NCBI GenBank assembly: GCA_000310025.1
Contig: FN649731.1
Coordinates: forward strand, 3,435,432 to 3,499,431
Source: Ectocarpus siliculosus
Taxonomy: Eukaryota > Sar > Phaeophyceae > Ectocarpales > Ectocarpaceae
DNA: 64,000 nucleotides
Direction: 5' to 3'
Below, piece after piece: positions 31,249-63,784 of this stretch (positions within the stretch are counted from its first letter, which is position 1; every line of letters begins with the position of its first letter). Made by a program: the position numbers and the translations under genes. The notes beneath the pieces are model-generated. The model was given only the letters and a program-made list of their open reading frames with translations, searched no databases and was not told the origin of the DNA.

Positions 31249-32156
31249 ATGGACACTGTCAAGGATCTCCTGTCGGTGGTTGGAAGGATCGAAGAGGCCA
31301 TTAAGGGCGCGGATGCTGTAAAAGTGACGATGCGCACTCGGATGAAGGACTACGGTAGCGTCCTCCAAGTGCTACAAGGCTCAGCGCCCGCCATGTTCGA
31401 GAACGAGCTCATGAGGTTGCAGGATCTGTTCAGTGAAATTGAAGATCTGCACGCTAAACACACGGCCGACCCTGAGGACGGCAGACCAGCCAAAATTGCC
31501 AAGAGGGTCAACAGAGGAACCCAGCATGAGTCGATCGGGGAGGCCTTGGACGCTATAGACAGAGAGGTCGTTCGGCAGTTCACCGCCATTGCTGCAAAAT
31601 CGTCCATCAACGCGGAGGCGGTGAAAATTGCGTTGGAAGAATTACGCCCTCCGAGCTTGCCGGACATGGCCGCGGTCCCCGCAGGAGCGCTTGACTTGCC
31701 CCGCAGCAGCTATGTGGAGCGAGCTGCGGTACAAGAAGTTGCCGACGGCCTCACCGGCCCGGAGGAGTCCCGTGCCCCCTACACCGTCGTCGGTATGGGT
31801 GGGGGGGGGAAGAGCGTGCTGGCCTCTGCTGTCGTTCGCAAGCCGAGCGTGAGGGAGCACTTCCGCGGCGGTATTTTCTGGGTGAGAGTGGGCAGGGGCG
31901 CGAAGAGCAGCCTCCTGGCTCTCCTCCCCCACGCCTGGTGGTGCTGGACGATGTGTGGGAACGCGAGGTCGTGGATGCGCTTGTTCCTCTGGAATTCAAG
32001 GTGCTGCTGACCACGCGTGATCGATCGGTTGTTGGTGTGCCAGCCGGAGGCTTGGAGCTGGGAGACATGACGGAGGAAGAGGCGCTGGAGTTGCTGCGGA
32101 CGACGAGCGGGACTGTGGGTCAGCCTGGTGACGATGTCCGGACGAAGATGACCAAG
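31249..32156 (+). pseudogene. Gene 1 exon: N-terminal helical module and first half of NB-ARC
   Basis: From the ATG in ACCATGG. Residues 1-134 are mostly amphipathic helix (for example LLSVVGRIEEAIKGADAV) with no known domain. From about residue 135 (PPSLPDMAAVPAGALDLP) it matches gene 2: P-loop VVGMGGGGKSVLASAVV, then GGIFWVRVGRG. The frame breaks at about 31927. The Walker B LDDVWE and VLLTTRDRS motifs follow in another frame to the donor AAG|GTGATG at 32156. Confidence 0.8.
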
Positions 32157-32686
32157 GTGATGGATGCGCCTTGAATCTTAGATCGACAAGGTGTATCAGG
32201 GTGTGCTTGTTTTTTCCCTCATGCATGGTTTCAGACATTGGTTGTCTGCTTGAGTGCTGCCTGGAGTTGAGCTTAGCATCGGTTGGTGGCTTGATGCTGA
32301 AGTGTCACAGGTGTTTGTACGACGAACAACGCACGTCGAGGTTGGTTTGGTGTGCTTCAGTCTGCTCTGATTGCATGCCCTCCGTTCCCGGTGACGGCGA
32401 GAAAGGCATGACACCAATGACAGCTTTGATGTTAAGTGGTGCGTGCACTTGTGTTTGTCGATGGTCAACCCATGTCGTCGCTGACTATCTCCTCGTAGAG
32501 CCTTCTCTGTTTAGTCGCTTCAACTTGTAGTTTCGATGCATGTCGGAAGCGTTATCCGTGTGGTAAGGACCCTCCATAGAGCTGTTGCGCCCTGTGTACA
32601 TATAAGAGTTATGCACTGCTGTCAAACACATTCATCATCGTGCTTGACTCGACTGAGCATTCAACTCCCGACGAACGCCGATCCAG

Positions 32687-32980
32687 GTCGTTGCACTCTG
32701 TGGACACCTACCGTTGGTGCTCGCTATCGCGGGTTCCATGTCCGTCGTGAGAGGGAAAGGCTTGACCGCCGTCGCCTGGGAAGAGCTGGCCAAAGAGTTG
32801 GAGAACGTGGCCAAGAAAATGCGAGCTCGGAGCGAGCAGTCATCGTCTATCAAAGTGGTCCTTGAGACCAGTTTTGACTCGTTGGCAGTGCGGAAGCAAG
32901 AAGAGTTCCTGAAGATGGCTGTGTTGGCCGCGGGTGCTCTTGCACCGATCAAGATGCTGCGCAATCTGTGGGAGATAGAG
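32687..32980 (+). CDS. Gene 1 exon: NB-ARC ARC1 part with GLPLA-like motif
   Basis: 98 codons, phase 0 on both sides (CCAG|GTCGTT to GAG|GTACGT). CGHLPLVLAIAGSM occupies the GLPLA position. The exon has the same length as its counterpart in gene 2 (56190-56483), with few differences, and the introns around it are also alike. Confidence 0.8.
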
Positions 32981-33179
32981 GTACGTTGGGGCGTTCCTTT
33001 TACCAGGTAGTTGGAAGTCTCGAAACGGTTTGCAAATCTTATGTCTGTTATAGATGTACGGGAAGGTTTAGTGGGTTGTGCGGCAGAGAGGAGTGAATAT
33101 GCCCTAGTTTCTACGGTCTTCGAAGTGTGCCGCATGTTGACCCCAGTTCATGTCTTCCCGGTGTTTCGTGTATCTGCAG

Positions 33180-33578
33180 GACGCTGAGGGTACGCGAGAC
33201 GAAGCTGAGGGTCTGGTTAGCAAATGCCTTCTACACGCTGTGGGAGGTGGTGGGTACCGTGTGCACGACCTGGTCCTGGAGTTTGCGAAGACTAGCATCA
33301 GGGCAGAGGAGGAGACGATGAAAAAGGCCACAGCGCTGCAGGCGCAGTACCTCGGCAGACTGGACGTGCTCGAGAGTTACCGAGACTCGGAGCACGGCGC
33401 TGGACACCAAGGCCTTTTCTGTTTGGATGCCCTCTGGCGCTCGGTGGAGAAGCTCTCGGGGGACCCTGAGCTGGAGGTTGCCTCGTATGGCACCAGCCTC
33501 GGGGAGTTGGAGTCAGGCGAGGCGACGGAAGCCGTGGGGACATCCTACTGTTCTGTAGGTTTCTTGTTCAACATCCAG
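33180..33578 (+). CDS. Gene 1 exon: winged-helix/VHD part of NB-ARC
   Basis: 133 codons, phase 0 on both sides. It contains HAVGGGGYRVHDLVLEFAK, with VHD at the MHD switch position, then a helical linker to the TPRs ending VGFLFNIQ before the donor CAG|GTACGG. Confidence 0.8.
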
Positions 33579-34266
33579 GTACGGCAGCATGTTTTTCTGG
33601 GGAATTCTGCACTGTTCGGAGGGTGCTCGTTGTCTAGTGTAGTACAAGGGCGCTTCGCGGACGACCGCTTTCATCGGTCGCCGCTACGCTATTTGTTCTG
33701 TATGATGTCGAATGTGTGCGGGTTGAGTTTCGAGATTAGAGCGAAAATGTGTAGTTAGGGTCTCGGCGCAATAAGTGCGTGATGACGCTCGCGTGCTCTT
33801 GTCGAGAGCGTTTCTGCACGCAGGAATGACTGAAAGATTGCTTGTATTCATTAAAGAGTGAGACATGGGCAAGGGAAGGAAAAGCGCGTCAAGTCCATCA
33901 CACCCGTCAGATCTACGTAACCTCCGGAGATGTATGATGTAGCGTCGCTGTACATGGTGCGGTTGGAAATATTGTTCCGTCTTGACAAAACGTTTGTTTT
34001 TCGCAAGGCGTTCGATGGCAAACGTGCTCGCAACTCTAGTTCTTCGTTCAATCTTTCGATTGTCGTCGACGCTACCCCTTCCCACCAACTGGCAAACGAG
34101 TGAGCGTCTTGTTTTGAAGAAGAGGAAGGAGCGTCATGTTCTCCAGATAGCATGTGGCCGTCGTTCTTGCTGAGAGAGGACTGGTCAGAATTTGTCCACC
34201 CATGTTTGTTCTTTTCCCTTCTGGGTGAACCACTGCCCTCAACACAACCCACTGCTCTTCGTTCAG

Positions 34267-34392
34267 GGCAAGTACGCGGAGGCCGAACCACTCTATGAGA
34301 GGTCACGGGCCATACAGGAGAAAGTCTTGGGTCCGGAGCATCCTCATGTGGCTACGTCGCTCAACAACCGGGCATTGTTGTTGGAGAGCCAG
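34267..34392 (+). CDS. Gene 1 TPR exon 1 (42 aa)
   Basis: TTCAG|GGCAAGTACGCG to GAGAGCCAG|GTGCGG, 126 nt, phase 0-0. It begins [20 protein letters not shown] and ends [11 protein letters not shown]: one complete kinesin-light-chain-type TPR. Confidence 0.85.
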
Positions 34393-34506
34393 GTGCGGCA
34401 CAAACGATGCTTGTAGAAGAGAATGAGCTCCGCTGTTCTACCCAGAGCTATGTGGATTTCACTGAATTCTGATTGTATGCCGTGCTCTTGACCACTTACC
34501 GTAAGG

Positions 34507-34960
34507 ATGCGAAAGATGGTACCAGGTGCGATCGACACTGTACTGTTTTCTTCTAGTCTTTTTTTTCCCGAACGCCGATACCATCTCCCCGACCGGTGAC
34601 GTTTTTTTACACCTGCGCGGAAATTGATTCATTTCACGTAACTTTTTCAAGGCACCATAGTCCCCGGTGCCATCTCCCGCACTACTACGGTATTCCGAAC
34701 AATAGGCTTTTCGTTACAGTGTGCAAACAGATGTATACATCGTACGGTACAGGAACCACACACGGCAGCCAAAGCAGCAGTCGTTTATTGTGATGGGGAC
34801 TCCACCAATGTTGCCGGCTGGCTTAGCGGCTGAGGATTCTGGTAGGCAGCAGGCAGTGGTCATGGGATGTACTTCGAGTTGGCTTTGGTGTACCCCATGT
34901 AGAGGTAATTTGTGACTATTGTGTTGCGTGTTTTTGGTTGAGCGACAAATCCTTACCGAC
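34507..34960 (+). repeat. GGTGCCATCTCTC intronic element, copy in gene 1
   Basis: Begins GATGCGAAAGATGG-ACCAGGTGCGATCG. It then has the opposite-strand form of the same words (CCGATACCATCTC, CCCCGGTGCCATCTC), a CGGTATTCCG word and a GAGTTGGCTTTGG block. Related copies are at 30733, 60645, 62694 and 63895. Confidence 0.6.
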
Positions 34961-35263
34961 GATTGTTAAATTATGCAACAGACTGTTTACCGTGTGGACT
35001 ACGACCGTACATGAACGAGTGTTGCTCCGATGATTCCGACACCACATGCATGTAAAAGATGGCCAGGTACCTCATTACAGCAGGTCAAAAGGTGGCCTGG
35101 GACCATTTGCAGAGCAATCTATCATGTTGTTCCTCAAGGGGCCCTGCATGTAAAACTCTTGGATCACCCTTACGTTACGTGTCAATACTGGTCGCGCGGA
35201 GGGGTGTGGGAGAGGCCTTATATGTCCCCGGGGGGGAACTTTTGACCAAATCCCCGTGGTTTC

Positions 35264-35706
35264 CAGGGTTGTTCACGGTTCGAAGCGGTTAGGAGCGTGA
35301 GATTTCCCTTGAGGAAACCGCTCCGCTCCTTGACATGAACAAAGAAACCGCTCCTCTCCGTGGGAATCATAACTCGGATAAACCGCTTCGCCGTGCTCCG
35401 TGATATTTTGAATTGAAACAATCCGCTCCGCTCCGAACCGTGAAATGTCAAAATTGAAAAAACCTCAGGGTTGCTCACGGCTCGTTTTTTTTCCACGGTT
35501 CGGAGCGGGTTTTAACCGAACCGCTCCGAACCGTGAGATTTTCCATTGAGAAAAACCGTCCGCTCCGTGAGATTGTAGCCTTAGATAGACCGCCCCGCCC
35601 CGCTCCGTGAGATTTTTTGGGGAAAAAAACAGGTACGCTCCGAACCGTGAAATTTCACAAATGAAAAACCGCTCCTCGGTTCGGTCATAAACCGTGAACA
35701 ACCCTG
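35264..35706. mobile_element. hAT-type MITE with 8-bp target duplication
   Basis: Perfect 17-bp terminal inverted repeats, CAGGGTTGTTCACGGTT at 35264-35280 and its complement at 35690-35706, are flanked by GTGGTTTC on both sides (35256-35263 and 35707-35714). An 8-bp duplication and a CAGGG terminus are hallmarks of the hAT superfamily. The 443-bp interior is made of degenerate CCGCTCCGCTCCGTGAGATT-like words in both orientations and has no transposase. Confidence 0.85.
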
Positions 35707-35807
35707 GTGGTTTCGGCATTTTTCGCGCGCGTTTTTTACCGCGTGCGAGATCCCACACAGCGCTGTAGTGGGAATTTCGAAACACTCCCCATGGGGTTCC
35801 TGCGGCC

Positions 35808-36350
35808 CCCCCCTCGGTGTTTGCCTTCGGGATTGGGTTTTCGTCGCATGGCAACGACGTTGTAAAGCAAGCCAATTCACTTCGTGAACTCGGCAACCAG
35901 GTTACCGTTTTTTTTTTTTTATTACCTCTTTTTTTTTTGCGGTAACCGCAATGGTGGTCGAGTAGATCATGTTGTGCGGGGTCGAGAACCCTCACTCCGC
36001 GCAAACGTGGTGATCGCACCACGTTGTGTTAAAATGGTCAAGCATCCTCGAGGCAGTTACACCGTGCTTATAACTTTCTCTGGAAGTGAAAGCACCAGAA
36101 AATAAATTAAGTCATACGCAGCTGTCATCCGTACGCAAGGAAGTAAGCACAAGATGTCGAACATCCTTAGCAGGATGCAGCTCACCCTTCATGCGACTCG
36201 CCAAATACCTCACGACACTTCGCGCTTGGTGTTGTGAGAGCCTGGTCCGGTGAGAACCCGGCGTGCTCCGTCCCGGCTTTGTAGGGATGCGAGGTCAGTG
36301 GTCTAACGACTACGGCATGCACGACTATGAGTACACCCCCCCCCCCCCTC
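35808..36350 (+). mobile_element. Poly(C)-tailed LINE-related element, copy A
   Basis: The sense strand is plus. One 5' monomer (GTGTTTGCC-TCGGGATTGGG to TTGTAAAGCAAGCC) is followed by GGTTACCG, T-rich tracts and CGGTAACCGCAATGGTGG. The body ends in the shared tail GTCTAACGACTACGGCATGC, GAGTACA and poly(C). No coding frame is intact. Confidence 0.75.
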
Positions 36351-36950
36351 CCCCCTTCGGGGTTGGGTTTTCGTCGCTTGGCAACGACGATGTAAAACAT
36401 GCGGCCGCCCCCGGTGTTTGCCATCGGGATTGCGTTTCCGTCGCATGGCAACGACGTTGTAAAGCAAGCCAATTCACTTCGTGAACTCGGCAACCAGGTT
36501 ACCGGTTTTTTTTTTTACCTCTGTTTTTTTTTGTGGTAACCGCAATGGTGGTCGAGTAGATCATGTTGTGCGGGGTCGAGAACCCTCACTCTGCGCAAAC
36601 GGGGTAATCGCACCACGTTGTGTTAAAATGGTCAAGCATCCTCGAGGCAGTTACACAGTGCGTACAACTGTCTCTGGAAGTGAAAGCACCAGAAAATAAA
36701 TTAAGTCATACGCAGCTGTCATCCGTACGCAAGGAAGTAAGCACAAGATGCCGAACACCCTTAGCAGGATGCAGCTCACCCTTCATGCGACTCGCCAAAT
36801 ACCTCACGGCACTTCGCGCTTGGTGTTGTGAGAGCCTGGTCCGGTGAGAACCCGGCGTGCTCCGTCCCGGCTTTGTAGGGATGCGAGGTCAATGGTCTAA
36901 CGACTACGGCATGCACGACTATGAGTACACCCCCCCCCCCCCCCCCCCCC
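36351..36950 (+). mobile_element. Poly(C)-tailed LINE-related element, copy B
   Basis: Directly follows copy A across its poly(C), with two 5' monomers in front. It is very similar to copy A, so the pair is either a tandem duplication or two insertions. It ends in a run of C just before the assembly gap. Confidence 0.75.
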
Positions 36951-36980
36951 AAAAGGGACCCCCCGCAAAGGGCCCCCAAG

Positions 36981-37080
36981 NNNNNNNNNNNNNNNNNNNN
37001 NNNNNNNNNNNNNNNNNNNNNNNNNNNNNNNNNNNNNNNNNNNNNNNNNNNNNNNNNNNNNNNNNNNNNNNNNNNNNNNN
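36981..37080. other. 100-N assembly gap
   Basis: Fixed-length N run after a poly(C) tract. The following sequence is a degraded second reading of copy B. Confidence 0.99.
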
Positions 37081-37450
37081 AACCCCCCCTTCGGCCCAAG
37101 GGGGGTATCCCCCCCCCTTTGGTTAAAAAGGGTCAGGCTTCCCGGGGGAGTTTCCCCGGGGGGAAAAATTTTTTTGGGAGGGAAAACCCCCAAAAAAAAA
37201 TTTATTTTTTCCCCGGTTTTCTCCCTTCCCAAGGAAATAAACCCCAAATTCCCAACCCCCTTTGCCGGGGGGCGCTCCCCCTTTATGGGGCTCCCCAAAA
37301 TCCCCCCGGCCCTTTCCCCTTGGTTTTTGGGAGCCCCGGTCCGGGGGAAACCCCGGGGTTTCCCCCCCCGCTTTTTGGGGGGGGGGGGGTAAAGGTTTAA
37401 AGGATTCGGCCAGCCCGGTTTTGGGTCCCCCCCCCCCCCCCCCCCCCCCC
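37081..37450. other. Low-quality sequence duplicating 36620-36950
   Basis: About 370 bases made almost only of homopolymer blocks, yet parallel to copy B in order. For example, CAAGGAAGTAAGCACAAGATG appears as CAAGGAAATAAACCCCAAATT, and GGTCCGGTGAGAACCCGGCG as GGTCCGGGGGAAACCCCGG. It ends in the same poly(C). Treat it as unreliable base calls. Confidence 0.8.
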
Positions 37451-37953: not shown

Positions 37954-38079
37954 GGCAAGTATGTTAAGGCAGAGCCTCTGTACCTTCGAGCCATTGAGAT
38001 TTGAAAGAAAACGCTCGGTCCTGACCAACCAGCTCTTGCCACATGGCTCAACATCCGGGCGGGGTTGTTGAGAAAATGT
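37954..38079 (+). pseudogene. Gene 1 TPR relic with stop codon
   Basis: After the acceptor TCCAG, the TPR reads [16 protein letters not shown], then TGA, then KKTLGPDQPALATWLN. The donor CAG|GT at the 42-residue boundary is replaced by TGTTTC. Both faults make it unusable as an exon. Confidence 0.75.
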
Positions 38080-38149
38080 TTCTCCACAATCTTATTTACG
38101 ATTTTCTCACTGCACTACGACTCCACCACGTTGTCCTCGCTGCATCCAG

Positions 38150-38275
38150 GGCAAATACTCGGAAGCTGAGCCACTCTATGAGCGGTGTCAGGCGATAAAG
38201 GAGAAGGCTCTAGGCCGTGAGCACCCAAGTCTAGCCACAACGCTCAACAACCGGGCGGGGTTGTTGAAGAGTCAG
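38150..38275 (+). CDS. Gene 1 TPR exon 2 (42 aa)
   Basis: ATCCAG|GGCAAATACTCG to AAGAGTCAG|GTGAGA, 126 nt, phase 0-0. Begins [20 protein letters not shown]. It is part of a tandem duplication with 38581-38706. Confidence 0.85.
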
Positions 38276-38384
38276 GTGAGAGCCGTGAGAATTTTCCAGT
38301 ATTTTTCGTAGGGTTCACGCTTGTTTTGAGAGTTTGATTCTCTCTCGCCCAGTCGCTTACACCACCCCACTGCTTCCTACACAG

Positions 38385-38510
38385 GGCAAGTATGACGAAG
38401 CCGACCCTCTCTATCTGCGAGCTATTGAGATTGGGGAGAAGACGCTAGGCCCTGACCACCCAGATCTTGCCACGAGACTCAACAACAGGGCGGGGTTGTT
38501 GAGAAAATGT
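38385..38510 (+). pseudogene. Gene 1 TPR exon without donor
   Basis: ACACAG|GGCAAGTATGAC opens a full 42-residue TPR ([20 protein letters not shown] onward), but the last codons are AGA AAA TGT instead of a CAG|GT donor. It shares this defect with the relic at 37954, showing that one is a copy of the other. It may be skipped or read into the following intron. Confidence 0.7.
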
Positions 38511-38580
38511 TTCTCCACAATCCCATTCACGATTTTCTCACTGAAATACGACTCCACCACGCTGTCCTCACTGCATCCAG

Positions 38581-38706
38581 GGCAAATACGCGGAAGCTGA
38601 GCCACTCTATGAGCGGTGTCAGGCGATAGAGGAGAAGGCTCTAGGCCCTGAGCACCCAAGTCTAGCCACAACGCTCAACAACCGGGCGGAGTTGTTGAGA
38701 GCGCAG
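38581..38706 (+). CDS. Gene 1 TPR exon 3 (42 aa)
   Basis: ATCCAG|GGCAAATACGCG to AGAGCGCAG|GTGAGA, phase 0-0. Nearly identical to exon 38150-38275, including the intron in front of it. Confidence 0.85.
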
Positions 38707-38779
38707 GTGAGAGTCATCAGAAAATTCCAGGAAGTTTCTTGTCGTACCCGATAGATATCGGGAGTGCTCAACAACCGGG

Positions 38780-38887
38780 CGCCCTGTTGTTGAGTCTCGT
38801 GGCAAGATCTGGGTGGTCAGGGCCTAGCGTCTTCTCTCCAATCTCAATAGCTCGCAGATACAGAGGGTCGGCTTCGTCGTACTTGCC
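38780..38887 (-). pseudogene. TPR exon in inverted orientation
   Basis: Read on the minus strand, a GTGTAG-adjacent acceptor is followed by GGCAAGTACGACGAAGCCGA and 36 codons of the same TPR as 38385. It is truncated at AACAACAGGGCG. The inverted block extends on to about 39010 and includes the intron and the donor end of the preceding exon, so about 230 bases of 38270-38490 were copied in reverse. Both ends of the block are palindromic around CTCAACAACCGGGC and TCAACAACCGG. Confidence 0.85.
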
Positions 38888-39572
38888 CTGTGTAGTAAGC
38901 AGTGGGGTGGTGTAAGCGACTGGGCGAGAGAGAACCAAACTCTCAAAACAAGTGTGAACCCTACGAAAAATGTTTGAAAATTATCACGGCTCTCACCTGG
39001 CTCTTCAACAACCGGCGGGGTTGTTGAAGAGTCAGGTGAGAGCCAAACGACGCTTCTAGATGGCTCTAGAAAAGAATGTTCATCCGCAGTTCTTAATACG
39101 AGTTGGCTTTAGCTACCTTCTGTAGCGGTAGGTCGTGGCCGGTGTTTTTGCGTGTTTTTGGTTGAGCGCACGAATCCTTACCGATGACATGAATGCAACC
39201 GTGTGGACTGCTACCTTACATACAAGAGTGTTACCCCGATGATCCGCTCACCAGATTCATGTAAACGGTGCCCAGGTACCTCACTACGGAAGCTTAAAAG
39301 TGGCCTGGACCAAGTTGCCAAGCAATCTAGCATGTTGTTCCTGGTTTTGTGTGCGCACCCTGGTGCAATCTCTCCGAACCGTGCCATCTGTCGCATCCTT
39401 GCGGCATCATGACAACTGGGCCAAGACAGAGCCGCGGAATGAACGGTCACAAGCCATTACGGGGGTACGTTCTGGACTTGGAGCATCCGGATGTGGCCCA
39501 GGCATTTGTTCTCGCGCACATGCAGCAGAGTCACGACATGATTTTCTGTCTGTCCCTCCCGTCACATTCCAG

Positions 39573-39698
39573 GGCAAGTATGAGGAGGCTGAGCCGCTCT
39601 ATGAGCGATCGCAGGCCATTCGAGAGAAGGTGCTTGGTCCGGAGCATCCAGGCGTTGCCACCGTGCTCAACAACCGGGCGGTGTTGATGTATGCCCAG
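39573..39698 (+). CDS. Gene 1 TPR exon 4 (42 aa)
   Basis: TTCCAG|GGCAAGTATGAG to TATGCCCAG|GTGAGA, phase 0-0. Begins [20 protein letters not shown]. It closely matches exon 61533-61658 of gene 2 together with the ~200 bases before it. Confidence 0.85.
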
Positions 39699-50422: not shown

Positions 50423-51164
50423 CTTCACATTTAAAACCGTTCCGTTCTCTCTGCCCAGTACCTTCTTCTGCCCGTACTAGTCTAACACTAGACGGGGTCA
50501 TTCCGGTGGTCACAGGCTAACTTCCCCAAAAACGCATTGTACGAACATAAAACGGAATATATAAAATGGACCCAAGGGTCCGCAAGCCAATAAAAGTAAT
50601 GTTTGTTGTTGTTGTTGTTTCTCTCACATTAGCTCTATAGTCCACAAAAATGGGGAGCCCGTGGTCGCAAAACCCGGCACATACGACGCCGCGGGGAAAC
50701 AAAACAAGAATAGAGTACAAATCACTCGGAAAATTATGCTGCTCGGGAACCCGTGGAAAAACAGAATTGTCGCTGACACTATGGATTCATTGCTACTCTA
50801 CCTTAGCTTCTTCGATAGAGATGGATTCGTCTAGTCATAATCATGAAACATAAAGATAAAAGTCAACGATAGATAGTCTAGGCCACTCCGCTCGCCTCTA
50901 CACACGCTATCCGAGGTAACCCTAGATTATTAAAAGATACAAAAAGGAAAAGGGAAAGGAAAAAGAAGAAAAAGAAAAAGAGAAGGAAGAGAGCAGATGG
51001 AGAGAAGGGAAAGAGAAGGAGAAAGACACACACAGAGAAAGACACACGCCGTATACAGGCAACAAACAACAGACCAACACAAAACACAAGACAAAGCGGG
51101 CCACTCGAGCCAGCCCATGCACGTCATCGCTCGCGGGGGGTTGGTGCAATGGTGCAGTGCTCGG
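50422..51164. other. No supported gene
   Basis: Low-complexity AAAG-rich tract at 50935-51010. Nothing else is recognised. Confidence 0.5.
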
Positions 51165-51865
51165 GGGGGGGTGTACTCATAGTCGTGCATGCCGTAGTCG
51201 TTAGACCATTGACCTCGCATCCCTACAAAGCCGGGACGGAGCACGCCGGGTTCTCACCGGACCAGGCTCTCACATCACCAAGCGCGAAGCGCCGTGAGGT
51301 ATTCGGCGAGTCGCATGAAGGGTGAGTTGCGTCCTGCTAAGGGTGTTCGGCATCTTGTGCTTATTTCCTTGCGTACGGATGACAGCTGGTTATGACTTAA
51401 TTTATTTTCTGGTGCTTTTACTTCCAGAGACAGTTGTAAGCACTGTGTAACTGCCTCGAGGAAGCTTGACCATTTTAACACAACGTGGTGCGATCATCCC
51501 CCGTTGCGCGGAGTGAGGTTTCTCCACCCCGCACAACATGATCTACTCGACCACCACTATGGTTACCGCCAAAAAAAAAAAAAAAACGAGGTAAAAAAAA
51601 AAAACGGTAACCTGGTTGCCGAGTTCACGAAGTGAGTTGGCTTGTTTTACAACGTCGTTGCCAAGCGACGAAAACCCAATCCCGATGGCAAACACCGAGC
51701 GGGGGGCTTGTTTTACGACGTCGTTGCCAAGCGACGAAAACCCAAACCCCGATGGCAAACACCGGGGGGGGCGGCTTGTTTTACAACGTCGTTGCCAAGC
51801 GACGAAAACCCAACCCCGATGGCAAACACCGGGGGGGGAACGAACACCGGGGGGGGGGGGGATAA
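51165..51865 (-). mobile_element. Poly(C)-tailed LINE-related element with three 5' monomers
   Basis: The sense strand is minus. The 3' tail and poly(C) (seen as poly(G) at 51165-51172) and body match the copies at 35.8, 36.4 and 53.3 kb. At the 5' end three tandem ~65-bp monomers lie at about 51645-51840, each containing CGTCGTTGCCAAGCGACGAA and each bounded by poly(G) on the plus strand. An inverted pair GGTTACCG/CGGTAACC surrounds two A-rich runs at 51560-51612. Confidence 0.8.
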
Positions 51866-51879
51866 GTCAAGCAAGTGTT

Positions 51880-52240
51880 TCAATTCGGCACGGTGTTTCG
51901 CGCTACTCGGTCCGCCTCTTCGCGTTTCCTGCCTTTCCTCGCCATCTCGTCCGCCTGCTGTACCCCTCCCACCCTCGTGGTGGTTGCCGTGTCCGTGTCG
52001 TTGTTGGGCTTCTTGTTTTGTTTGAGCGCTCGTTGTCGGCTAGCCTCCTCTTCTTTCTTGTGCCAGGAGGCCATGAACCTCTCAGCTCCCTGCAGTACCC
52101 CTCTATGCCAAGGTAACCCCCGGTCCACCTTCGCTGCTTCCATCCAAGTTGTTTCCGGGACTCCGAAGAAGCATGACTCGGCGTCCGTAGACCCATACGC
52201 AAGGCAAAAATTTTGTTGGACCGGAAGAACAAAAAAAATC
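51880..52240 (-). CDS. Possible exon or gene fragment, unidentified
   Basis: Minus-strand open frame with protein-like content: NFCLAYGSTDAESCFFGVPE, TTWMEAAKVDRGLPWHRGVL, then a Lys/Glu-rich helix AERFMASWHKKEEEASRQRA. It runs up to the edge of the LINE-related element at 51865 and may be cut by it. The product is unknown. Confidence 0.35.
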
Positions 52241-52439
52241 ATCGAAATTTCAGAGGGGTAGAGCCGGGTAGATGCCGTCCTCCCACCAATCACATGTCGA
52301 CTATGTAGGACACTATGTTGGACAGACACAGCTGATTGAGCGATGGGCACGATGCTCTCGGGAGAATCACCGAAATCCTCTTGCACAGCAGCACCACACA
52401 CCTCACGTAGACAATATACGAGACAACCAGCACAGCAGT

Positions 52440-53000
52440 ATACGGACTGCTGTAGGCCAAGGGCAACCAAAGGCACACATCATAGGAGGCGTTGGATATG
52501 GCTCTTGAAGCCCGTTGCCTGCTGTCGGCAGCACAAACAAGCGAGTGGCGACGCAAATCAATCCGCGGTCCTTCTGCATCACCCTCAACCTACCGATCTT
52601 TGGAGCTTCCCGCACAGACGCATCCCCATAACAGAGAAAACGAGGCGAACACACTGCCATCGACCAAGGTCGGCCAAAGGCACACATCATGGCTGGCGTC
52701 GGAAGCTAGTTTTAGACCCCGAGGCCTACTGCTAGCAGCGTAGTAAGCGAGGGAACATGCGAGTGCACACAACTTAGATCTGTCTGCGGTCTCTTCGTCT
52801 GCCGGCCGATCTTTGCTTCCACAACAGACGCACCACAGAAACAGAGACAAGTGAAACGTACACAGCACTGTAGGCCAAAGGCATCCAAATACACACGTCG
52901 TGGGAGGGGTCGGGGCCAATTTTTGGAGCCCGTTGCCCTCTGCTAGTAGCGAAAGCAAAAGCAAGTGCGCACCCATGCACACAGCAGCAGCAACAACAAC
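52440..53000. repeat. Three imperfect ~205-215-bp tandem units
   Basis: Units starting near 52450, 52667 and 52868 share GTAGGCCAAAGGCA, ACACATCAT-GG-GGCGT and GCCCGTTGCC-CTGCTAGCAG. A CAG/CAA-rich stretch follows at 52980-53035. Confidence 0.7.
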
Positions 53001-53249
53001 AACAGAACAACAGCAGCAGCAGCAGCACTGCTGCCGCTGAGCTGATGATGATGAGAGCTCAACAGCGCTCCCATTCATCCCCTGACTGACTGGTGGTATC
53101 GGGTGAGGTGTGAGCGTGCGCACTGGTGACCTACGTGGTGGCGTAGGCTCCCCCCATATCTATCTACGGTTGCTTTGATGTCTCTCTCCGACCCTTCTTT
53201 TCGCGCTTCGCGCGAAATAATTTAATTTTTTTTTGTTGGACCCGTATGT

Positions 53250-53792
53250 ATGGGGGGGGGTGTACTCATAGTCGTGCATGCCGTAGTCGTTAGACCATTG
53301 ACCTCGCATCCCTACAAAGCCGGGACGGAGCACGCCGGGTTCTCACCGGACCAGGCTCTCACATCACCAAGCGCGAAGCGCCGTGAGGTATTCGGCGAGT
53401 CGCATGAAGGGTGAGCTGCATCCTGCTAAGGGTGTTCGGCATCTTGTGCTTATTTCCTTGCGTGCGGATGACAGCTAGTTATGACTTAATTTATTTTCTG
53501 GTGCTTTCACTTCCAGAGACTGTTGTAAGCACTGTGCAACTGCCTCAAGGATGCACCATTTTAACACAACGTGGTGCGATCATCCCCCTTGCGCGGAGTG
53601 AGGGTTTTCGACCCCGCACAACATGATCTATTGTACTCGACCACCATTATGGTTACCGCCAAAAAAAAACTAGAGGTAAAAGAAAAACGGTAACCTGGTT
53701 GCCGAGTTCACGAAGTGAACTGGCTTGTTTTACAACGTCATTGCCAAGCGACGAAAACCCAATCCCGATGGGAAACACCGAGGGGGGGGGAT
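53250..53792 (-). mobile_element. Poly(C)-tailed LINE-related element with one 5' monomer
   Basis: Sense minus; very similar to 51165-51865 along the whole body but with one monomer only. It is inserted after an AT-rich stretch; poly(G) on the plus strand marks the sense 3' end. Confidence 0.8.
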
Positions 53793-54486: not shown

Positions 54487-55668
54487 CGGCTTGAACATGT
54501 TAGTAAGCTGCTCGCCGAAAATAAGCCTTGGCCCGCCTTTCTCCACATTGGAGCTCGAGCGACAGAGGAGTGGGAGGCTTGCCCCACCGTCTCCGAGGAG
54601 GCTCTAACATGGATGACGACCTCTGCAGTTGGGGTGCTCGGCGTTGCGAGCGTAGGGCCCTTAGTGCCTGTGTGCGAGGCCTTCAAGGCGTTGATCGAGG
54701 CCGCAGAGGGTGCGGCCGAATCCCAGGACAAGCTACAGAGCTTGGTGTCCCAGTGCGCGTTCCTCGCCACCGTCTTGATCCAGCACGGTCGAGCGGTGGG
54801 TCCCCTCACCCAGGTGCACAAGCCCATCCAAGACTTCGTCGTCACGACCAACGAGCTAGCAGGGTTCGCGGCTAGGTGGGCCAAGGGCGGCAAGTGTAGA
54901 GCGTTTTTTTGCCATCACCCAGACCTGAGCGCCCTAGCCGGCTTCGAGAAGTGCCTCCGCAGGATAAGGAGCGGCATCGCCTTGGTACACGGGCTGGAGC
55001 ACCACCAGTCGTTTTTGGCGGCGCTTCCCTCTTTGCTCCCCCCAAGCTTGCCGGACATGGCTGCGGTCCCCGCAGGAGCGCTTGACTTGCCCGGCAGCAG
55101 CTACGTGGAGCGAGCTGCGGTACAAGAAGTTGCCGACGGCCTCACCGCCCCGGAGGAGTCCCGTGCCCCCTACACCGTCGTCGGTATGGGTGGAGGGGGG
55201 AAGAGCGTGCTGGCCTCTGCTGTCGTTCGCAAGCCGAGCGTGAGGGAGCACTTCCGCGGCGGTATTTTTTGGGTGAGAGTGGGGAGGGGCGCGAAGAGCA
55301 GCCTCCTGGCTCTCCTCCAGGGCCTGGCCAGGGAGATGGGCGCGGCGCCGACGGATGCCCCGCACGGGGTGCCTCACGTCCTTGACAGCCTCGAGCAGGT
55401 GCAGCAGCATCTGGCTGCAGTTGCATCCACCGGCACCTCCCCACGCCTGGTGATCCTGGACGATGTGTGGGAGCGCGAGGTCGTGGACGCGTTTCTTCCT
55501 CTGGGGTTTAAGGTGCTACTGACCACGCGTGATCGATCGGTTGTTGGTGTGCCGGCCGGGCGCTTGGAGCTGGGAGACATGACGGAGGAAGAGGCGCTGG
55601 AGCTGCTGCGGAAGACGAGCGGGACTGTGGGTTAGCCTGGTGACGATGTCCGGACGAAGATGACCAAG
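54487..55668 (+). pseudogene. Gene 2 exon: N-terminal helical module and first half of NB-ARC
   Basis: The acceptor TTCGCAG is followed by RLEHVSKLLAENKPWPAFLH, in frame with the ATG at 54613 used by a simple ORF call, so coding starts earlier. About 150 residues after that ATG form a likely helix bundle (PVCEAFKALIEAAEGAAESQ and FEKCLRRIRSGIALVHGL), loosely reminiscent of HeLo/MLKL/RPW8-type four-helix domains. That likeness is inference. From PPSLPDMAAVPAGALDLP (about 55042) it matches gene 1. TAG at 55633 interrupts the frame. Confidence 0.75.
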
Positions 55669-56189: not shown

Positions 56190-56483
56190 GTCGTTGCGCT
56201 CTGTGGACACCTGCCGTTGGTGCTCGCTATCGTGGGTTCCATGCCCGTCGTGAAAGGGAAGGGTTTGAGAGCTGGGGCCTGGGAGGAACTGGCCAAAGAG
56301 TTGGAGAACGTGGCCAAGAAAATGCGAGCCCGGGGCGAGCAGTCATCGTCTATCAAAGTTGTCCTTGAGACCAGTTTCGACTCCTTGGCAGTTCGGAAAC
56401 AAGAAGAGTTCCTGAAGATGGCTGTGTTGGCCGCGGGTGCTCTTGCGCCGATCGAGATGCTGCGCAATCTGTGGGAGATAGGG
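56190..56483 (+). CDS. Gene 2 exon: NB-ARC ARC1 part
   Basis: 98 codons, phase 0-0, with VVALCGHLPLVLAIVGSM at the start (GLPLA position) and NLWEIG before the donor GTACGT. Same length as 32687-32980. Confidence 0.8.
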
Positions 56484-56677: not shown

Positions 56678-57085
56678 GACGCAGAGAGTACGCGAGACGA
56701 AGCTGAGGGTCTGGTGAGCAAATGCCTTCTACACGCTGTGGGTGGTGGTGGTGGTGGTGGGTACCGTGTGCACGACCTGGTCCTGGAGTTTGCGAAGACT
56801 GGCATTAGGGCAGAGAAGGAGGCGCTGGAAAAGGCCACATCGCTGCAGGCGCAGTACCTCGGCAGACTGGACGTGCTCAAGAGTTACGGAAACCCGGAGC
56901 ACGGCGCTGGAGACCAAGGCCTTTTCTTTTTGGATGCCCTCTGGCGCTCGGTGAAGACGCTCTCGGGGGACCCTGAGCTGGAGGTTGCCTCGTATCGCGC
57001 CAGCCTCGGGGGGTTGAAGTCATGCGAGGCAACGGAAGCCGTGGCGAGATCCTGCGGATCTGTGGGTTTCTTGTTCAACATTCAG
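56678..57085 (+). CDS. Gene 2 exon: winged-helix/VHD part
   Basis: 136 codons, phase 0-0. A GGT run makes seven glycines before YRVHDLVLEFAK where gene 1 has four, which explains the 9-nt difference in length. Ends NIQ before CAG|GTACGG. Confidence 0.8.
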
Positions 57086-57700: not shown

Positions 57701-58340
57701 CAGGAGTGGCTAGGGTTAAAGAAAGGGTCGTGCCAACCCAGTATCTCTCTTTTATATCTGTTGTATGTTTTATATATGGTATCGTTTTGGCTGCGGTGTG
57801 ACAGAATATTCCCTTACAACCATATCTCTCTTTAAGAGAATGTTCTGTAGTACCGTAGCCGAAGCCTCTCGTTCCAACTACAGTATGTGCCGTTGTACAT
57901 TCATGTCACATGTATCGCAGCTGGCGCCAGCACCTTGGGCTAGCCCCACACACCGCTTTGTCTGTCGGTTGGCGAGCAATATTGACCCCAGGTGCTTGGT
58001 ACGTTCTTGGTACGGTACCTGTGTTGGGAAATATATCATGGTGTTTCCGCGGCACATTTGTTTGCACGTTGATAAACTGTAGTTTTGTTGCCTTGTTCAA
58101 GGTGTGCTGATTTCATACTCGCACCTCCTCTAGAACTACAACTCGAGCCCACCGATGGACCGGCATCCACGAGAATAATCCACCCACACTTTGATGTGGC
58201 TTCCAGGAGCTCGATAAGAGAAAACGTACGAAATATGACAAAATCCCTTCTAAAATCGATTTTGGTCGTGCCAAGCCGGTTCAACTCTCTTTAATCGGTA
58301 GTTCTCTCAATGATTTCCTCTTCAACCGTAGGCGCTATTG
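57701..58340. mobile_element. Tc1/mariner-like MITE in intron of gene 2
   Basis: 640 bp present in the intron after the VHD exon but absent at the matching place of gene 1 (near 34195). The ends CAGGAGTGGCTAGGGTTAAAG and the complement of the right end, CAATAGCGCCTACGGTTG, are imperfect inverted repeats. TA stands on both sides (57699-57700 and 58341-58342). No transposase frame. Confidence 0.7.
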
Positions 58341-58407
58341 TACCCATGTTAGTTTTTTCCCTTCTGGGTGAACCACTACCTTGACACAACACACTGTTTT
58401 CGCTCAG

Positions 58408-58533
58408 GGCAAGTACGCTGAGGCCGAACCACTCTATGAGAGGTCACAGGCCATACAAGAGAAGGTCTTCGGTCCGAAGCATCAGGTCGTGGCTACGTTG
58501 CTCAACAACCGGGCGGCGTTATTTGAACGGCAG
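58408..58533 (+). CDS. Gene 2 TPR exon 1 (42 aa)
   Basis: CGCTCAG|GGCAAGTACGCT to GAACGGCAG|GTAAGA. Begins [20 protein letters not shown]. The counterpart of gene 1 exon 34267-34392, with the same intron sequence before it. Confidence 0.85.
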
Positions 58534-58839
58534 GTAAGAGCCAAACGATGCTTCTAGAAGAAGAATTCCTCCGCAGTTTTAGATCTAATGTTGACTCCGA
58601 CTCTTTTCCGTACTGTTCATCACATGTCTTAGTACGTTTGGCGAGACCGGGCCACTCTATAAACGGTCACAACCCACCTAGGGGAGGTCCTGGTCCTGGA
58701 GCAACCGGACGCTGCCCGGGCGCTCGACAACCGGGGCGGGCGTGGTGAAGATTTTAATTATCCGCGACCAGTTTAAGAACCGACTTTGATTGTAATATAC
58801 GTGCAACTCTGCCGCGCTGTGTGCGACTGCATGCCCCAG

Positions 58840-58965
58840 GGCAAGTACACTGAGGCGGAGCCATTCTATGAGCGGTCGCAAGCATTACGAGAGAAGGTGC
58901 TGGGCCCGGAGCATCCTGATGTGGCCGCAACGCTCATCAACCGGGCGGGGTTGTTGGAGAAGCAA
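58840..58965 (+). CDS. Gene 2 TPR exon 2 (42 aa)
   Basis: GCCCCAG|GGCAAGTACACT to GAGAAGCAA|GTGAGA. Begins GKYTEAEPFYERSQALREKV. The donor has CAA in place of CAG. Confidence 0.82.
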
Positions 58966-59068
58966 GTGAGAGCCACACGGTGCTTCTAGACGCCCTTAGA
59001 AGAATATCCCCCAAAGTTCTACAAGTCAATTTGAATACAATATGACTTTCTGCCACAACATATCATGG

Positions 59069-59195
59069 CAAGTGTGCTGAGCCAGAGCCACTCTTTGAAC
59101 AGCCAAAAGCCTTGCGAGGGCACTTGCTGGGCCTATAGAACCCGGGTGTGGCCTTGGCTCTTCACAACAGCACGCGTGTGGTCGAGAAGTTGTTT
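59069..59195 (+). pseudogene. Decayed TPR exon
   Basis: The 42-residue TPR pattern is still visible (CAEPEPLFEQPKALRGHLLG, TAG, NPGVALALHN). The acceptor CAG is lost (CATGG), a stop is present and no donor remains. Similar relics lie at 58633-58745, 59917-60045, 60315-60447, 62383-62505 and 63463-63590, most with CTGGGCCTGTA-AACCCGGGTGT in the middle. Confidence 0.7.
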
Positions 59196-59687
59196 ATCTG
59201 AGGCCAGGTGTAAGTCCCAATTTTTTATTGCAATATGCGTGAAGCTCTGCCTTATTGTGTGCAAGTGCATGCGAGGGCAAGCGCGCTGAGGCCGAACCAC
59301 TCTTTGAGCGATGTTAGGCGATACATAGGAGTTGTCCCGATGGTTCCCTCACCATATGCATCAAGTACCTCATTTCAGCAGCTAATGAAGTGGCCTGAGC
59401 CCATTTGCCGAGCAATCAATGATGCCATTCTTGCTTTATCTTTCCGCACCCCGTGCCACCTCTCCGACCGGTGCCATCTCTCCGAACAGTGCCATCTGCC
59501 GCATCCTTGCGGCATCATGACAACTGTGCCGAGAGAGATTCACGTTATGGACGATTACAAGCCACAAGCCATACGAGGGTATCTTCTGGGGCAGGAGCAT
59601 CCGGATGTAACCCGAACATTTGTTCTCCCGCACATGTAGCAACGTCACCAAACGATTTTCTCTCGTTCCCTTCCCGTCACCTTCCAG

Positions 59688-59813
59688 GGCAAGTATGACA
59701 AGGCTGAGCTTCTGTACAGGCGCTCACTGGCTATCCACGAAAAGGTTTATGGTCGTGACCACCCGGACGTTGCTACAGATCTCAACAACTGGGCGGGGTT
59801 GTTGGAGAGGCAG
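59688..59813 (+). CDS. Gene 2 TPR exon 3 (42 aa)
   Basis: CTTCCAG|GGCAAGTATGAC to GAGAGGCAG|GTGAGA. Begins GKYDKAELLYRRSLAIHEKV. The most diverged intact copy here. Confidence 0.85.
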
Positions 59814-60120
59814 GTGAGAAACAAAGTATGCTTCTGGAATCACGTATTCCTCCGCCAATTTGACCTCAATTTGAATGAAATGCAACTCTCTTGTCGCACT
59901 TTTTTTCTCGTATCATGGCGAGTGTGCTGAGCCAGAGCCGCTCTAAGAACGGTCGTAAGCCATACGAGCGAACTCGCTGGGCCTGTAGGACCCGGGTGTG
60001 GCCCAGGCGCTTCACAACAGCACGCGTGTTTTTGGGAAATTGTTCATCCCTAGTTGTAGATCCCACTTTGACTGAACTATGAATACAACTCTGCCACCCC
60101 TGTGTGCGACTGCATGCCAG

Positions 60121-60246
60121 GGAAAGTACGCTGAGGCCGACCCACTGTACGAGCGGTGCCAGGCGATATTCGAGACGGCCTTGGGTCCGGAGCACCCGAG
60201 TGTGGCCACAGCGCTCAACAACCGGGCGGGGTTGTTGGAGACGCAG
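60121..60246 (+). CDS. Gene 2 TPR exon 4 (42 aa)
   Basis: ATGCCAG|GGAAAGTACGCT to GAGACGCAG|GTGAGA. Begins [20 protein letters not shown]. Confidence 0.85.
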
Positions 60247-60644
60247 GTGAGAGCCAAACTCTCCGCAATTCTACTTGTCGATTTGCCTCTCTGCCGCGCT
60301 GTTTATCGCATGTCATGACAAGTGGGCTGAGCCAGAGTCACTCTATGACCGGCTATAAAAACAAAATCACGAGGGAACGTGCTGGGCTTGTAGAACTCGG
60401 GTTTGGCCCGGGCGATTCATAACAGCATGCATGTCTTTGAGAAATTGTTTATTCGCAGTTATAGACCCCACTTTGACCTAACTGTGAGTACGACTCTTCC
60501 ACGCTGTGTACGACTGCATGCCAGGGTGAGGTTTGTGCCTCGATATGTCTAGAAGAAAATGATTGTCTGGTGTTCTAAATCTGTGTTGAGTTCACTGAAT
60601 TCTGATTCTCTGCCACACTTTTCGCCACGTACCTTGAGGATGCG

Positions 60645-61130
60645 AGAGATGGCACCGGGTGCGATCGAAATTGTAAACATCGCTTGTTTCTTATCTTTTT
60701 CTCGCACCCCGGGATCATCTCTCCGACCCCGGGTCGGAAATACAATTTTATCATTTCGTCTAGCTTTTTCAAGGGACCCACCCCCGTGCCGTATCCAAAA
60801 TGCGTATAGCGGCCTTTCAGTACTTGAATAACCGGTGGTACGGCGGTGCTGAATACGCGCACCCCGGTGCCATCTCTCCCACTGTTGCGGTATTCCGTAC
60901 CACCACAGCAGGCTTATCGGTTCCGTGTGCAGACAGATGTGTGCATCGTGCGGTACAGGAAACATACACGGCAGGCACCGCAGCAGTCGTTTGTTGTGGT
61001 GAGGGCGCATCACGTAGGATTCTGGTACGCAGCAGCCAGTGGTCACGGGGTATAATTCGAGTTGGCTTTGGCGTAGCTTCCGTAGCGGTAGGTTGTGGCT
61101 TTTGTGTGTCGTGTGTTTTTGATTGAGCGC
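60645..61130 (+). repeat. GGTGCCATCTCTC intronic element, copy in gene 2
   Basis: From GATGCGAGAGATGGCACCGG through the opposite-strand words (CACCCCGGTGCCATCTCTCC) to the GAGTTGGCTTTGGCGTAGC and AGCGGTAGGT blocks. Nearly the same block order recurs at 62694-63200. Confidence 0.7.
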
Positions 61131-61532
61131 GCAATCCCTTACCGATTACGTAAATGCAACCGAAGTGTGTAGCGCGTGGACTGTGACCGTACATACAACG
61201 AGTTGCCCCCTCACCACATGCATGTAAAAGGTTTCTCACGTACCTAAGTCCAGCAGCTCAACCGTGGCCTGGGCCTAGTTGCCAAGCAATCTATCATGCT
61301 GTTCCTCCTGTATTTTGCGCACCCCGGTGCCATCTCTCCGAACCGTGCCATCTCTTGTATCCTCTTGACATCATGACAACGGTGCCGAGCCAGAGCCACT
61401 GTATAAATGGTCACAAGCCAACGAGGGTACGTTCTGAGCTTGGAGCATCCGGTTGTCGCTTAGGCTATTGTTCTCTCGCTCATACACCTTCCCCAAACGA
61501 TCTTCTCTCTTTCCCTTCCCGTCACATTCCAG

Positions 61533-61658
61533 GGCAAGTATGAGGAGGCTGAGCCTATGTACGAGCATTCGCAGGCCATTCGAGAGAAAACGCTTGGTCC
61601 GGATCATCCTGCGGTTGCAACAGTGCTCAACAACCGGGCGGGGTTGTTGAAGACGCAG
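61533..61658 (+). CDS. Gene 2 TPR exon 5 (42 aa)
   Basis: ATTCCAG|GGCAAGTATGAG to AAGACGCAG|GTGAGA. Begins [20 protein letters not shown]. Matches gene 1 exon 39573 with its upstream intron. Confidence 0.85.
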
Positions 61659-62693
61659 GTGAGAGCCAAACTCTGCCCAATGAGGGTGTTCGCGGACGGG
61701 TCTTTGATGGTGGTCCTTGTAGTGGGGAGAAGTTCGAAATCAAGATCTGGAATTGATTTCAAGACCGCTTGCGAAGACCGGATTGCCTCTCCCTGGTGTT
61801 TTTTTTTAACGTTTTCAAGAAGTCATGCATGTGATGACACCCACGTGGCTGTTGGCCAGTTTTTTTCTCCTGCACACCACTTTCATGCGTGAACCGAGGA
61901 ACTCACGTTGCCCGTGATGCAGCGCCACCAGACTGTCTACTCTGCGCTGTCTACCTACTTTCTTCCATAAGCCATCGAACTGGAGATCTCTTTTTTTTTT
62001 TCACCCTTGCGATAGTTGGCCCGTCTATCGCGCGCAAAGAATACCACGCCCTTTTGCTGGCATGTGGCTCCTGTGACACTGGGCACACGCCCCACATCGC
62101 ACTTTCACTCAGATCACGCGGATGCAAACGCCGATCGCCACGGAACCTCAACCTTTTGGATGCGCCCCTACTCCGAGCGAGCTTTTTGCTTTGATATCTG
62201 TTTGCCGGGTAGACTGACCCTGAGAGGTGTAGCGTGCTGCGCAACGCGTGAGTTTTTTTTCTTCCGAGCGGCCGAGTGGTGTGTGTTGTGTGTCGTCGTG
62301 TTTGAAAAGGTTCGACCGCCGTCACCACCGAGGGTGTGTCCTTGTCAAGTTGTCTCCGCGCCGCGCTGTTCATAGTATATCAGGGAAAGTGGGCCGAGCC
62401 ACAGCCACTCTATGAACGGTTATAAATCATTATCTTCGAAACGTGCTGGGCCTGTATAACCCGCGTGTGGTCCAAGCGCAGCGCGCGTGTGGTTGAGAAT
62501 TTGTTTATCCGTAGTTGTAGATCCCACTTTGACTCAACTATGAGTACAACTCTGCCACCCCTGTGTACGACTGCACGCCAGGGTGAGAAACGAACGATGC
62601 ACCTAGGTGGTTCTAGAAGAATATGCTGTCCGGTGTTCTAGATTTGTCTGGATTTCACTGAAGTCTATCCCGTGCTCTTGACCACGTACTGTA

Positions 62694-63200
62694 TGGATGC
62701 TAGAGATGGCACCGGGTGCGATCGAAACTGCACTGTTTTTTTCTCGGGTTTTTTCCGCACCCCGTATCCATCTCTCCGACCCCGGATCGGAAATACAATT
62801 TTATCATTTCGTCTAGCTTTTCCAAGGGACCCCCGTGCCATATCGGTGCGATGCCCGAATTAATACGTACAGCGGCGTCTCAGTGCTTCAGTAACTTGTG
62901 GTATGACGGTGCGGAATACGCGCCCCCCGGTGCCATCTCTCGCACTACTACGGTATTCCGTACCACCACAATCGTATTTTCGGTTCCGTGTGCAAGCACA
63001 TGTGTGCATCGTATTTACGGTACAGGAAACACTTACAGCAGGCACAGCAGCAGTCGTTTGTTGTGATGGGGGCGCATCACCTCGGTACCAATGTTGCCGC
63101 CTGGCTTAACGGCTAAGGATTCTGGTACGCAGCAGCCAGTGGCCATGGGGTGTCGGTCGAGTTGGCTTTGGCGTAGCGTCTATAGCGGTAGGTGGTGGCG
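62694..63200 (+). repeat. GGTGCCATCTCTC intronic element, second copy in gene 2
   Basis: Begins GATGCTAGAGATGGCACCGG and follows 60645-61130 block by block, about 2.05 kb downstream. A third copy starts at 63895 and is cut by the window end. Confidence 0.7.
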
Positions 63201-63658
63201 TGTGTGTTGAGTGTTTTGGGTTGAGCGCGCAATTCTTTACTGCTTACACTATTGCAACCACCATTTTACCCGTGTGGACTGCGACCGTACGTTCAAAGAG
63301 TGTTGCCCCGATGATTTCCTCACCACATGCATGTAGAAGGTGCCCGGGTAACTCAGCCCAGCAGCTCAAACCGTGGCCTGGGCCCACTTGCCAAGCAATG
63401 TATGATGCTGTTCCTATTTGTTTTTGAGCACCCCGGTGCCATCTCTCGCATCCTTGCGGCATCATGACAACGGTGCGGAGACAGATCGACTCAATGAACG
63501 GTTGTATATCATACAGGGAACCTGGTGGGCCTGTCGAACCCGGGTGTGGCCCAGGCGCTTCACAACAGCACGCGTGTGGTGGAGAAATCGTCCCGTAGTT
63601 GTGTAGATGTCCATTAGATTGCGCTATGCATACGACCCTACCGCGCTGTGCGTGCCAG

Positions 63659-63784
63659 GGCAAGTACGCTGAGGCCACGCCACTGCACGAGCGGTCACAG
63701 GCCATACGAGAGAAAGCGCTAGGTCCGGAGCATCCTGATGTGGCCACATCGCTCAACAACCGGGCGGGATTATTGGAGAGCCAG
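63659..63784 (+). CDS. Gene 2 TPR exon 6 (42 aa)
   Basis: CGTGCCAG|GGCAAGTACGCT to GAGAGCCAG|GTAAGG. Begins [20 protein letters not shown]. Last intact exon before the window end. Confidence 0.85.

Follow-up and report, generated by a model that had tools for sequence, protein, structure and literature searches.

The DNA analysed here, hereafter the window, is a stretch of 64,000 nucleotides of the brown alga Ectocarpus siliculosus (C6:3435432-3499431) carrying two neighbouring immune-receptor-like genes in which an NB-ARC domain is followed by an array of tetratricopeptide repeats (TPRs). In brown-algal NB-ARC-TPR receptors, each repeat occupies an exon of its own, in phase 0. In the first of the two genes (gene 1) and four related loci of the same genome, the evidence moderately favours an exchange of these one-repeat exons (cassettes) mainly at a palindrome within the exon rather than in the introns. 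This reading follows from the linkage of exon bodies to the intron end before them, the reassortment of bodies with exon tails, stereotyped fused exon ends and the hinges of an inverted module. The moving unit would be not the exon but a module of the 3′ part of the upstream intron and the exon body, which would join a variety of exon tails and the introns that follow them.

The exon-end palindrome

A sequence-only reading of the window had described ten intact 126-nt cassettes, and all ten were confirmed: each was open in frame 0, preceded by AG, followed by GT and contained one 42-residue TPR. Four belonged to gene 1 (cassettes 1 to 4, phase 0-0, at 34267-34392, 38150-38275, 38581-38706 and 39573-39698, the last found) and six to gene 2 (cassettes 1 to 6, at 58408-58533, 58840-58965, 59688-59813, 60121-60246, 61533-61658 and 63659-63784), all on the + strand. 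AG and GT flanks by themselves carried little meaning, since open 126-nt stretches flanked by AG and GT were common anyway in the 64 kb (+ strand, 83; - strand, 82). The meaningful signal was the coincidence of these flanks with TPR boundaries. Among the 12 sense TPR units >40 bits in the window, ten had both flanks and two had AG only. Across 27 locus stretches sampled from the same genome (189 Mb in 492 contigs searched), 220 of 265 units above this score were intact. In single-frame TPR arrays (13 stretches, at a lower threshold of >15 bits), both flanks were found for 1 of 74 units. Two such intronless arrays, with repeats in one open frame at a spacing of 126 nt or near multiples of three, were located at C6:3062600-3065400 (L037) and C26:7009600-7011700 (L038).

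Of the 220 intact exons, 218 scored >60 bits, and 217 of these were distinct. Towards the exon end, the residues LNNRAGLL and the next codon (codons 32-40) were written as a near-palindrome of 26 bp, CTCAACAACC-GGGCGG-GGTTGTTGAG, at exon nt 94-119 (for example 38243-38268 and 38674-38699 in gene 1 cassettes 2 and 3). Codons 32-39 were nearly uniform across exons, with CTC in 169 of 206, AAC in 139 of 152 and 154 of 160, CGG in 114 of 138, GCG in 165 of 203, and TTG in 149 of 189 and 161 of 193. In the remainder of these exons (codons 31-40 excluded), 94 of 603 leucine codons were TTG and 110 were CTC. Of the 217 distinct exons, 58 had the complete 7-bp core stem, whereas none of 500 synonymous recodings produced more than 2 complete stems. 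The mean number of stem pairs was 5.16 of 7, against 2.79 when the exons were recoded with their own codon usage. After clustering of the bodies at 80% identity, 13 of 67 cluster representatives still had the complete stem (maximum of 2 when recoded). The same stem geometry was never complete at other exon positions, and it was complete in none of the 74 single-frame TPR units of the genome (mean 1.19 pairs).

A genome-wide search with the 26-mer gave 144 matches (≤3 mismatches) and none for the reversed control; among the matches listed, most coincided with cassette positions. An exact palindrome search of viral contigs gave no match. Introns contained copies as well: 33 of 207 held 34 copies in total, and one shuffle per intron gave none. 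Within loci, intron copies were 0.81 alike, against 0.68 and 0.65 for their flanks, a comparison that is biased because the copies were chosen by similarity.

Probable exchange products in five related loci

Each unit was split into a head (the end of the preceding intron), a body (exon nt 1-93) and a tail (exon nt 120 onwards with the start of the next intron), and units <60 bits were excluded. The five related loci (C2a, C2b, C2c, C10 and gene 1) comprised 66 units. Of 132 same-body pairs from these loci, 121 had the head in common and 20 the tail; the values for random pairs were 0.07 and 0.06. With ungapped cluster labels, body and head agreed at 0.80 (null 0.06), and body and tail at 0.135 (null 0.07; reached by 12 of 1000 shuffles). 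One body, ending in SLATTFNNRA, carried the tails ELLRAQ, GLLQAQ and GLLSNC. Of 157 pairs with close bodies, 60 had the right end of similarity at exon nt 110-119 and 31 at nt 130-139; the selection of these pairs rules out ends in nt 15-93, and pairs from two further loci, C485 and C16b, were included. A count of 114 pairs, from which C485 and C16b were excluded, gave a shared head in 97 and a shared tail in 19. The mirror test started from pairs with close tails: of 127 such pairs, 100 had bodies <80% identical, and in 52 the similarity had its left end at exon nt 90-99. The array of gene 1 is part of a group of rearranging arrays, the others being three loci on contig C2 and one on C10.

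Written as strings of body types, C2a and C2b shared 4 adjacencies (of 14 and 13) and C2b and C2c shared 1 (of 13 and 11). That modules are shared but differently ordered supports the view that cassettes have been gained, lost and reordered over evolutionary time, in a single genome. The proposal that symmetrical one-repeat exons can be added, removed or reordered was thereby borne out between related loci of the genome. Over body codons 1-31, the ratio of nonsynonymous to synonymous differences (pN/pS) was 0.36 (crude counts over 673 pairs, recombination not modelled), and the repeats are therefore conserved overall. The ratio was >1 only at codons 20, 31, 35 and 37, and pN reached its highest values at codon 37 and at codons 40 and 41, which are part of the exon end.

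Thirty-nine units did not have GT at the exon end. In 17 of them (11 with a narrower pattern, 17 with a widened regular expression), the palindrome was fused to a member of a small set of sequences (CAATTGTTAGTCC, AAAATGTTTCTCC and others), and all 17 lay in the five loci. Two were in gene 1 of the window, on the + strand. The unit at 38385-38510 had been noted before as a full repeat that has lost its donor, which was correct; its palindrome (38478-38503) is fused to AAAATGTTTCTCC, and the letters following the unit are TTCTCC. The unit at 37954-38079, which had not been described, has an in-frame stop and a palindrome fused to the same sequence. In 15 of the 17 cases the next unit followed at 191, 193 or 196 nt, about 44 nt closer than in the 235-240 class that is common among intact units. 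The join of palindrome and CAATTGTTAGTCC also occurred inside one intron (after C2a 7563). One type of donor-less end contains a GTTAGT which, as read by eye, would give an exon of 124 nt and break the phase. The fused form would arise by deletion between an exon copy and an intron copy of the palindrome, a direction of change that we infer. Loss of the donor should silence the cassette and leave the frame unharmed, because skipping a 126-nt exon keeps the frame.

Gene 1 also contained a module in inverted orientation (38780-39013, - strand), with an antisense TPR body at 38762-38887 that the sequence-only reading had not included. The module was 95% identical to the reverse complement of 38259-38492, and 93% over 262 nt. 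At its first hinge (38767-38794), the left half of the palindrome was joined to the reverse-complemented left half (CTCAACAACCGGGCG joined to CCCTGTTGTTGAG), and at the second (39001-39031), the right half to the reverse-complemented right half (CTCTTCAACAACC joined to GGCGGGGTTGTTGAAGAG); both hinges lie in palindrome loops. Left-left and right-right hinges are the expected outcome if one palindrome-to-palindrome module turned round. Site-specific inversion between palindromic sites leaves joins of this kind, and the gene 1 hinges are alike in this respect; the sites here are short coding sequence, and no recombinase is known for them, none having been searched for. Chimeric reads are an unlikely source of the inverted module, as the copy differs from its neighbour (93-95% identity rather than 100%). 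At C16b (C16:824500-827200, L033), sense and antisense TPR bodies alternated with a period near 270 nt.

Ectopic recombination or template switching between palindromes, either between exon copies or between an exon and an intron copy, could give rise to all of these products. The palindrome may itself promote the exchange, which would presumably occur in the germline. It would supply one body with different tails, would strip the splice donor in a stereotyped manner and thus silence the cassette, and could invert a single module.

Competing explanations

Several observations weigh against exchange at the palindrome or limit its reach. Identity between exons is longest in this highly conserved stretch, so exchange may simply land there. 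The break could be placed no finer than exon nt 94-119, and the mirror test cannot localise it, because similarity between random different-body pairs often extends through the block too. The 5′ and 3′ parts of one intron agreed at 0.40 (null 0.08); they are only partly linked, and therefore some exchange takes place within introns too. The single-frame control units, none of which had the complete stem, also encode other residues at the palindrome positions. Reassortment, as judged from the pair counts, is shown in the five related loci only. In C485, which is palindrome-poor (complete stem in 0 of 11), same-body pairs shared the head in 45 of 54 and the tail in 54 of 54, and random pairs agreed as much (0.83 and 1.00); this locus therefore reflects whole-unit tandem duplication and is no test of linkage. 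The other loci (169 units, C16b apart) gave 28 same-body pairs, of which 20 shared the head and 15 the tail, too few for a conclusion. Only one crisp inversion was found, and the antisense bodies of C16b stop near the left arm, with less exact hinges.

The alternative that survives best, which we regard as a serious if less probable candidate, is that the palindrome is kept for its action in RNA. A hairpin upstream of the 5′ splice site would tune the inclusion of TPR exons, and exchange would be a by-product of conservation. The predicted folding energy of a perfect copy was -15.2 kcal/mol, and exon nt 91-120 had a mean of -8.23 kcal/mol, against -4.23 kcal/mol after synonymous recoding. The palindrome also adjoins the donor and is missing from the single-frame TPR arrays, whose repeats have no exon of their own. 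On the other hand, loop codons 35-36 were about as biased as the stem codons, and therefore the whole block, not the stem alone, is conserved. The copies within introns also speak against a splicing role, with only 10 of the 34 being followed by a donor-like site.

Somewhat less likely, we consider, is a block without a function of its own, homogenised by repeated conversion among exon ends, the palindrome being an accident of coding LNNRAGLL. Such homogenisation predicts codon identity across the whole block including the loop, as was observed. The bias was compared across loci, for exons whose bodies were ≤70% identical. Where the residue matched, the codon matched too at 0.63-0.92 for codons 32-36, 38 and 39 and at 0.46 for codon 37. 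Elsewhere in the exon the values were 0.29 for Leu9 and 0.15 for Leu21, which argues against homogenisation, whereas Glu18 (0.85) and Gln42 (0.95) were uniform too, as homogenisation would allow. The inversion in gene 1 counts further against this explanation, since an inversion requires homology in inverted orientation, and simple homogenisation of a block would not provide this.

The classical model of symmetrical-exon shuffling, in which an exon moves as a whole, together with adjacent intron sequence, through recombination in the introns, appears unlikely as a general account. Every intact unit was phase 0-0 (by the selection of units), C485 resembles whole-unit tandem duplication and the two parts of an intron are only partly linked, all of which the model would accommodate. 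In the five-locus set it is contradicted: the unlinking was strongest between exon body and tail, as seen in the shared heads and tails of same-body pairs, rather than between the intron parts. Close-body pairs, those of C485 and C16b included, ended within the exon, at nt 110-119, about twice as often as at nt 130-139. The model stands for the other loci, where young duplicates are few. Of the symmetrical-exon reading of the window, the phase 0-0 exons were thus upheld, whereas the main junction in the five traceable loci appears to be the LNNRAGLL palindrome inside the exon and not the intron.

A dedicated somatic or germline system that recombines modules at palindromes, as invertases do with palindromic sites, would by this analogy fit the left-left and right-right hinges of gene 1 and is nevertheless very improbable, given a single crisp inversion and an inverted motif elsewhere in the window that appears to belong to a dispersed repeat.

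The two genes and related systems

The sequence-only reading had proposed two NB-ARC genes in the window, and this applies fully only to gene 2. In gene 1, the first exon (31249-32010, + strand) encodes an N-terminal domain and the start of the NB-ARC domain, and the match to PF00931 was partial (32.8 bits; Pfam NB-ARC positions 4-65 of 248 only). Relative to gene 2, 121 nt are deleted at about 31927 (the register between the two genes goes from 23391 to 23512), and the frame is lost between the P-loop and Walker B as a result. The loci C2b, C2c, C458 and C9 contain a segment close in length to the missing one. Gene 1 is unlikely to yield a receptor, because the deletion shifts the NB-ARC frame, and is probably a pseudogene with an intact-looking array. 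It spans an assembly gap of 100 N (36981-37080), and its closest relative among the sampled loci was C2c, with 93-98% identity across long stretches.

The N-terminal parts of genes 1 and 2 differ (31249-31640 and 54613-55032); in both genes, a PPSLPDM stretch marks the point at which they meet the NB-ARC part common to the two. That of gene 1 matched locus C10 (69%), which suggests an exchange of N-terminal domains.

Gene 2 (+ strand) was predicted to begin with an exon at 54613-55626 that encodes an N-terminal domain and NB-ARC up to profile position 168. This exon matched PF00931 with 68.6 bits (cut-off 23.5; 6.3e-19). A second predicted exon (56190-56483) would encode the remainder of the domain, and a third (56678-57085) a 408-nt linker ahead of the TPR array. 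Splicing in silico gave a model of 1202 amino acids, open to the last TPR, with 15 TPR exons, six of them inside the window; nine further intact cassettes lie past its end (C6:3500377 to 3507797). Exon coordinates outside the TPRs are predictions, and the model runs as far as the last TPR, short of a terminal exon. Two fossil TPR units, which had not been noted before, lie in introns of gene 2 on the + strand, both without acceptor and donor: one at 59067-59192 with a stop and one at 59917-60042 with stops. Beyond the window (C6:3502164-3507797), the types R/KRSLAI..NNWA and ERxQA..NxRA alternate across seven cassettes, which suggests a two-exon duplication unit. A third NB-ARC gene lies nearby on the minus strand (C6:3516300-3518500, L046), with its TPRs within the same long open frame.

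Other repeats were present in and around the genes. The sequence GGTGCCATCTCTCGCATCC, which forms an inverted pair flanking the cassette at 63659, was considered as a recombination signal and rejected. It had 51 genome matches (≤2 mismatches), against 3 for the reversed control, and looks like the ends of dispersed repeats resembling miniature inverted-repeat transposable elements (MITEs); five inverted pairs about 110-200 bp apart were examined, on C8, C21, C22, C31 and C52. A MITE-like repeat with inverted ends ACCGTAAGGATGCGAGAGATGGCACC was found in TPR introns at 60638-60881 and 62695-62947, with single ends at 63435 and 63894, and was dispersed elsewhere, including C8, C21, C22, C31 and C52. 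A dispersed repeat of about 550-600 bp (35801-36949, 51163-53789 and 22327-22826) has two tandem copies in the long intron of gene 1 and two between genes 1 and 2. On the minus strand, an open frame of 743 amino acids (9773-12004) with reverse-transcriptase-like features, as judged by eye, is probably a non-long-terminal-repeat (non-LTR) retrotransposon.

Alternative splicing of brown-algal NB-ARC-TPR genes, which would favour the RNA hairpin, is reportedly the subject of a 2023 study by Teng, to go by its title. The combination of NB-ARC and TPRs in the window is that of the brown-algal receptors for which TPR exon shuffling has been proposed (Zambounis 2012 and Teng 2023, as cited in PMC11378527), and the statement in the sequence-only reading that such shuffling had been described agrees with this source, as far as its available text goes. 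A palindromic exon junction, stereotyped donor loss and module inversion do not appear in the part of PMC11378527 that was available. In addition, no paper on a palindrome in the NB-ARC-TPR context was found in the open literature, as judged from titles and the beginnings of abstracts. The same partial source describes brown-algal LRR-ROCO genes with 72-bp phase-2 leucine-rich repeat (LRR) exons and alternative splicing (PMC11378527); these are likewise symmetrical arrays of one repeat per exon, with a different repeat and a different phase. A COR family search of the genome gave one match, and its candidate ROCO stretch (C17) contained no LRR exon under the filter used. The closest mechanistic parallel found was in Tetrahymena, whose LRR genes contain large arrays of equal-length symmetrical 90-bp exons for which ectopic recombination has been proposed (PMC6564038). 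There, unequal crossing over and an element resembling long interspersed nuclear elements were proposed, and the available portion of that paper has no exon-internal palindrome.

The NB-ARC-TPR family and its exon shuffling were thus already known, and the exon-internal palindromic junction appears to be the new element. A further possibility, which we consider improbable, is that the palindrome is a dedicated recombination site and that the arrays are silent and expressed cassettes, possibly switched within the life of an individual. If so, a body fused to a donor-less tail would be silent, an exchange at the palindrome that gave it a tail with a donor would make it spliceable, and DNA rearrangement would thereby turn receptor variants on or off. 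That the arrays provide a repertoire for pathogen sensing is a role that we infer from the gene family. If exchange occurs mainly at the palindrome, the unit of shuffling in the five loci would shift from the exon to a module of intron and body. A 26-bp exon junction with fusion and inversion products at one spot lends itself to direct scoring from long-read data and would offer a testable handle on how diversity is made in such gene families.

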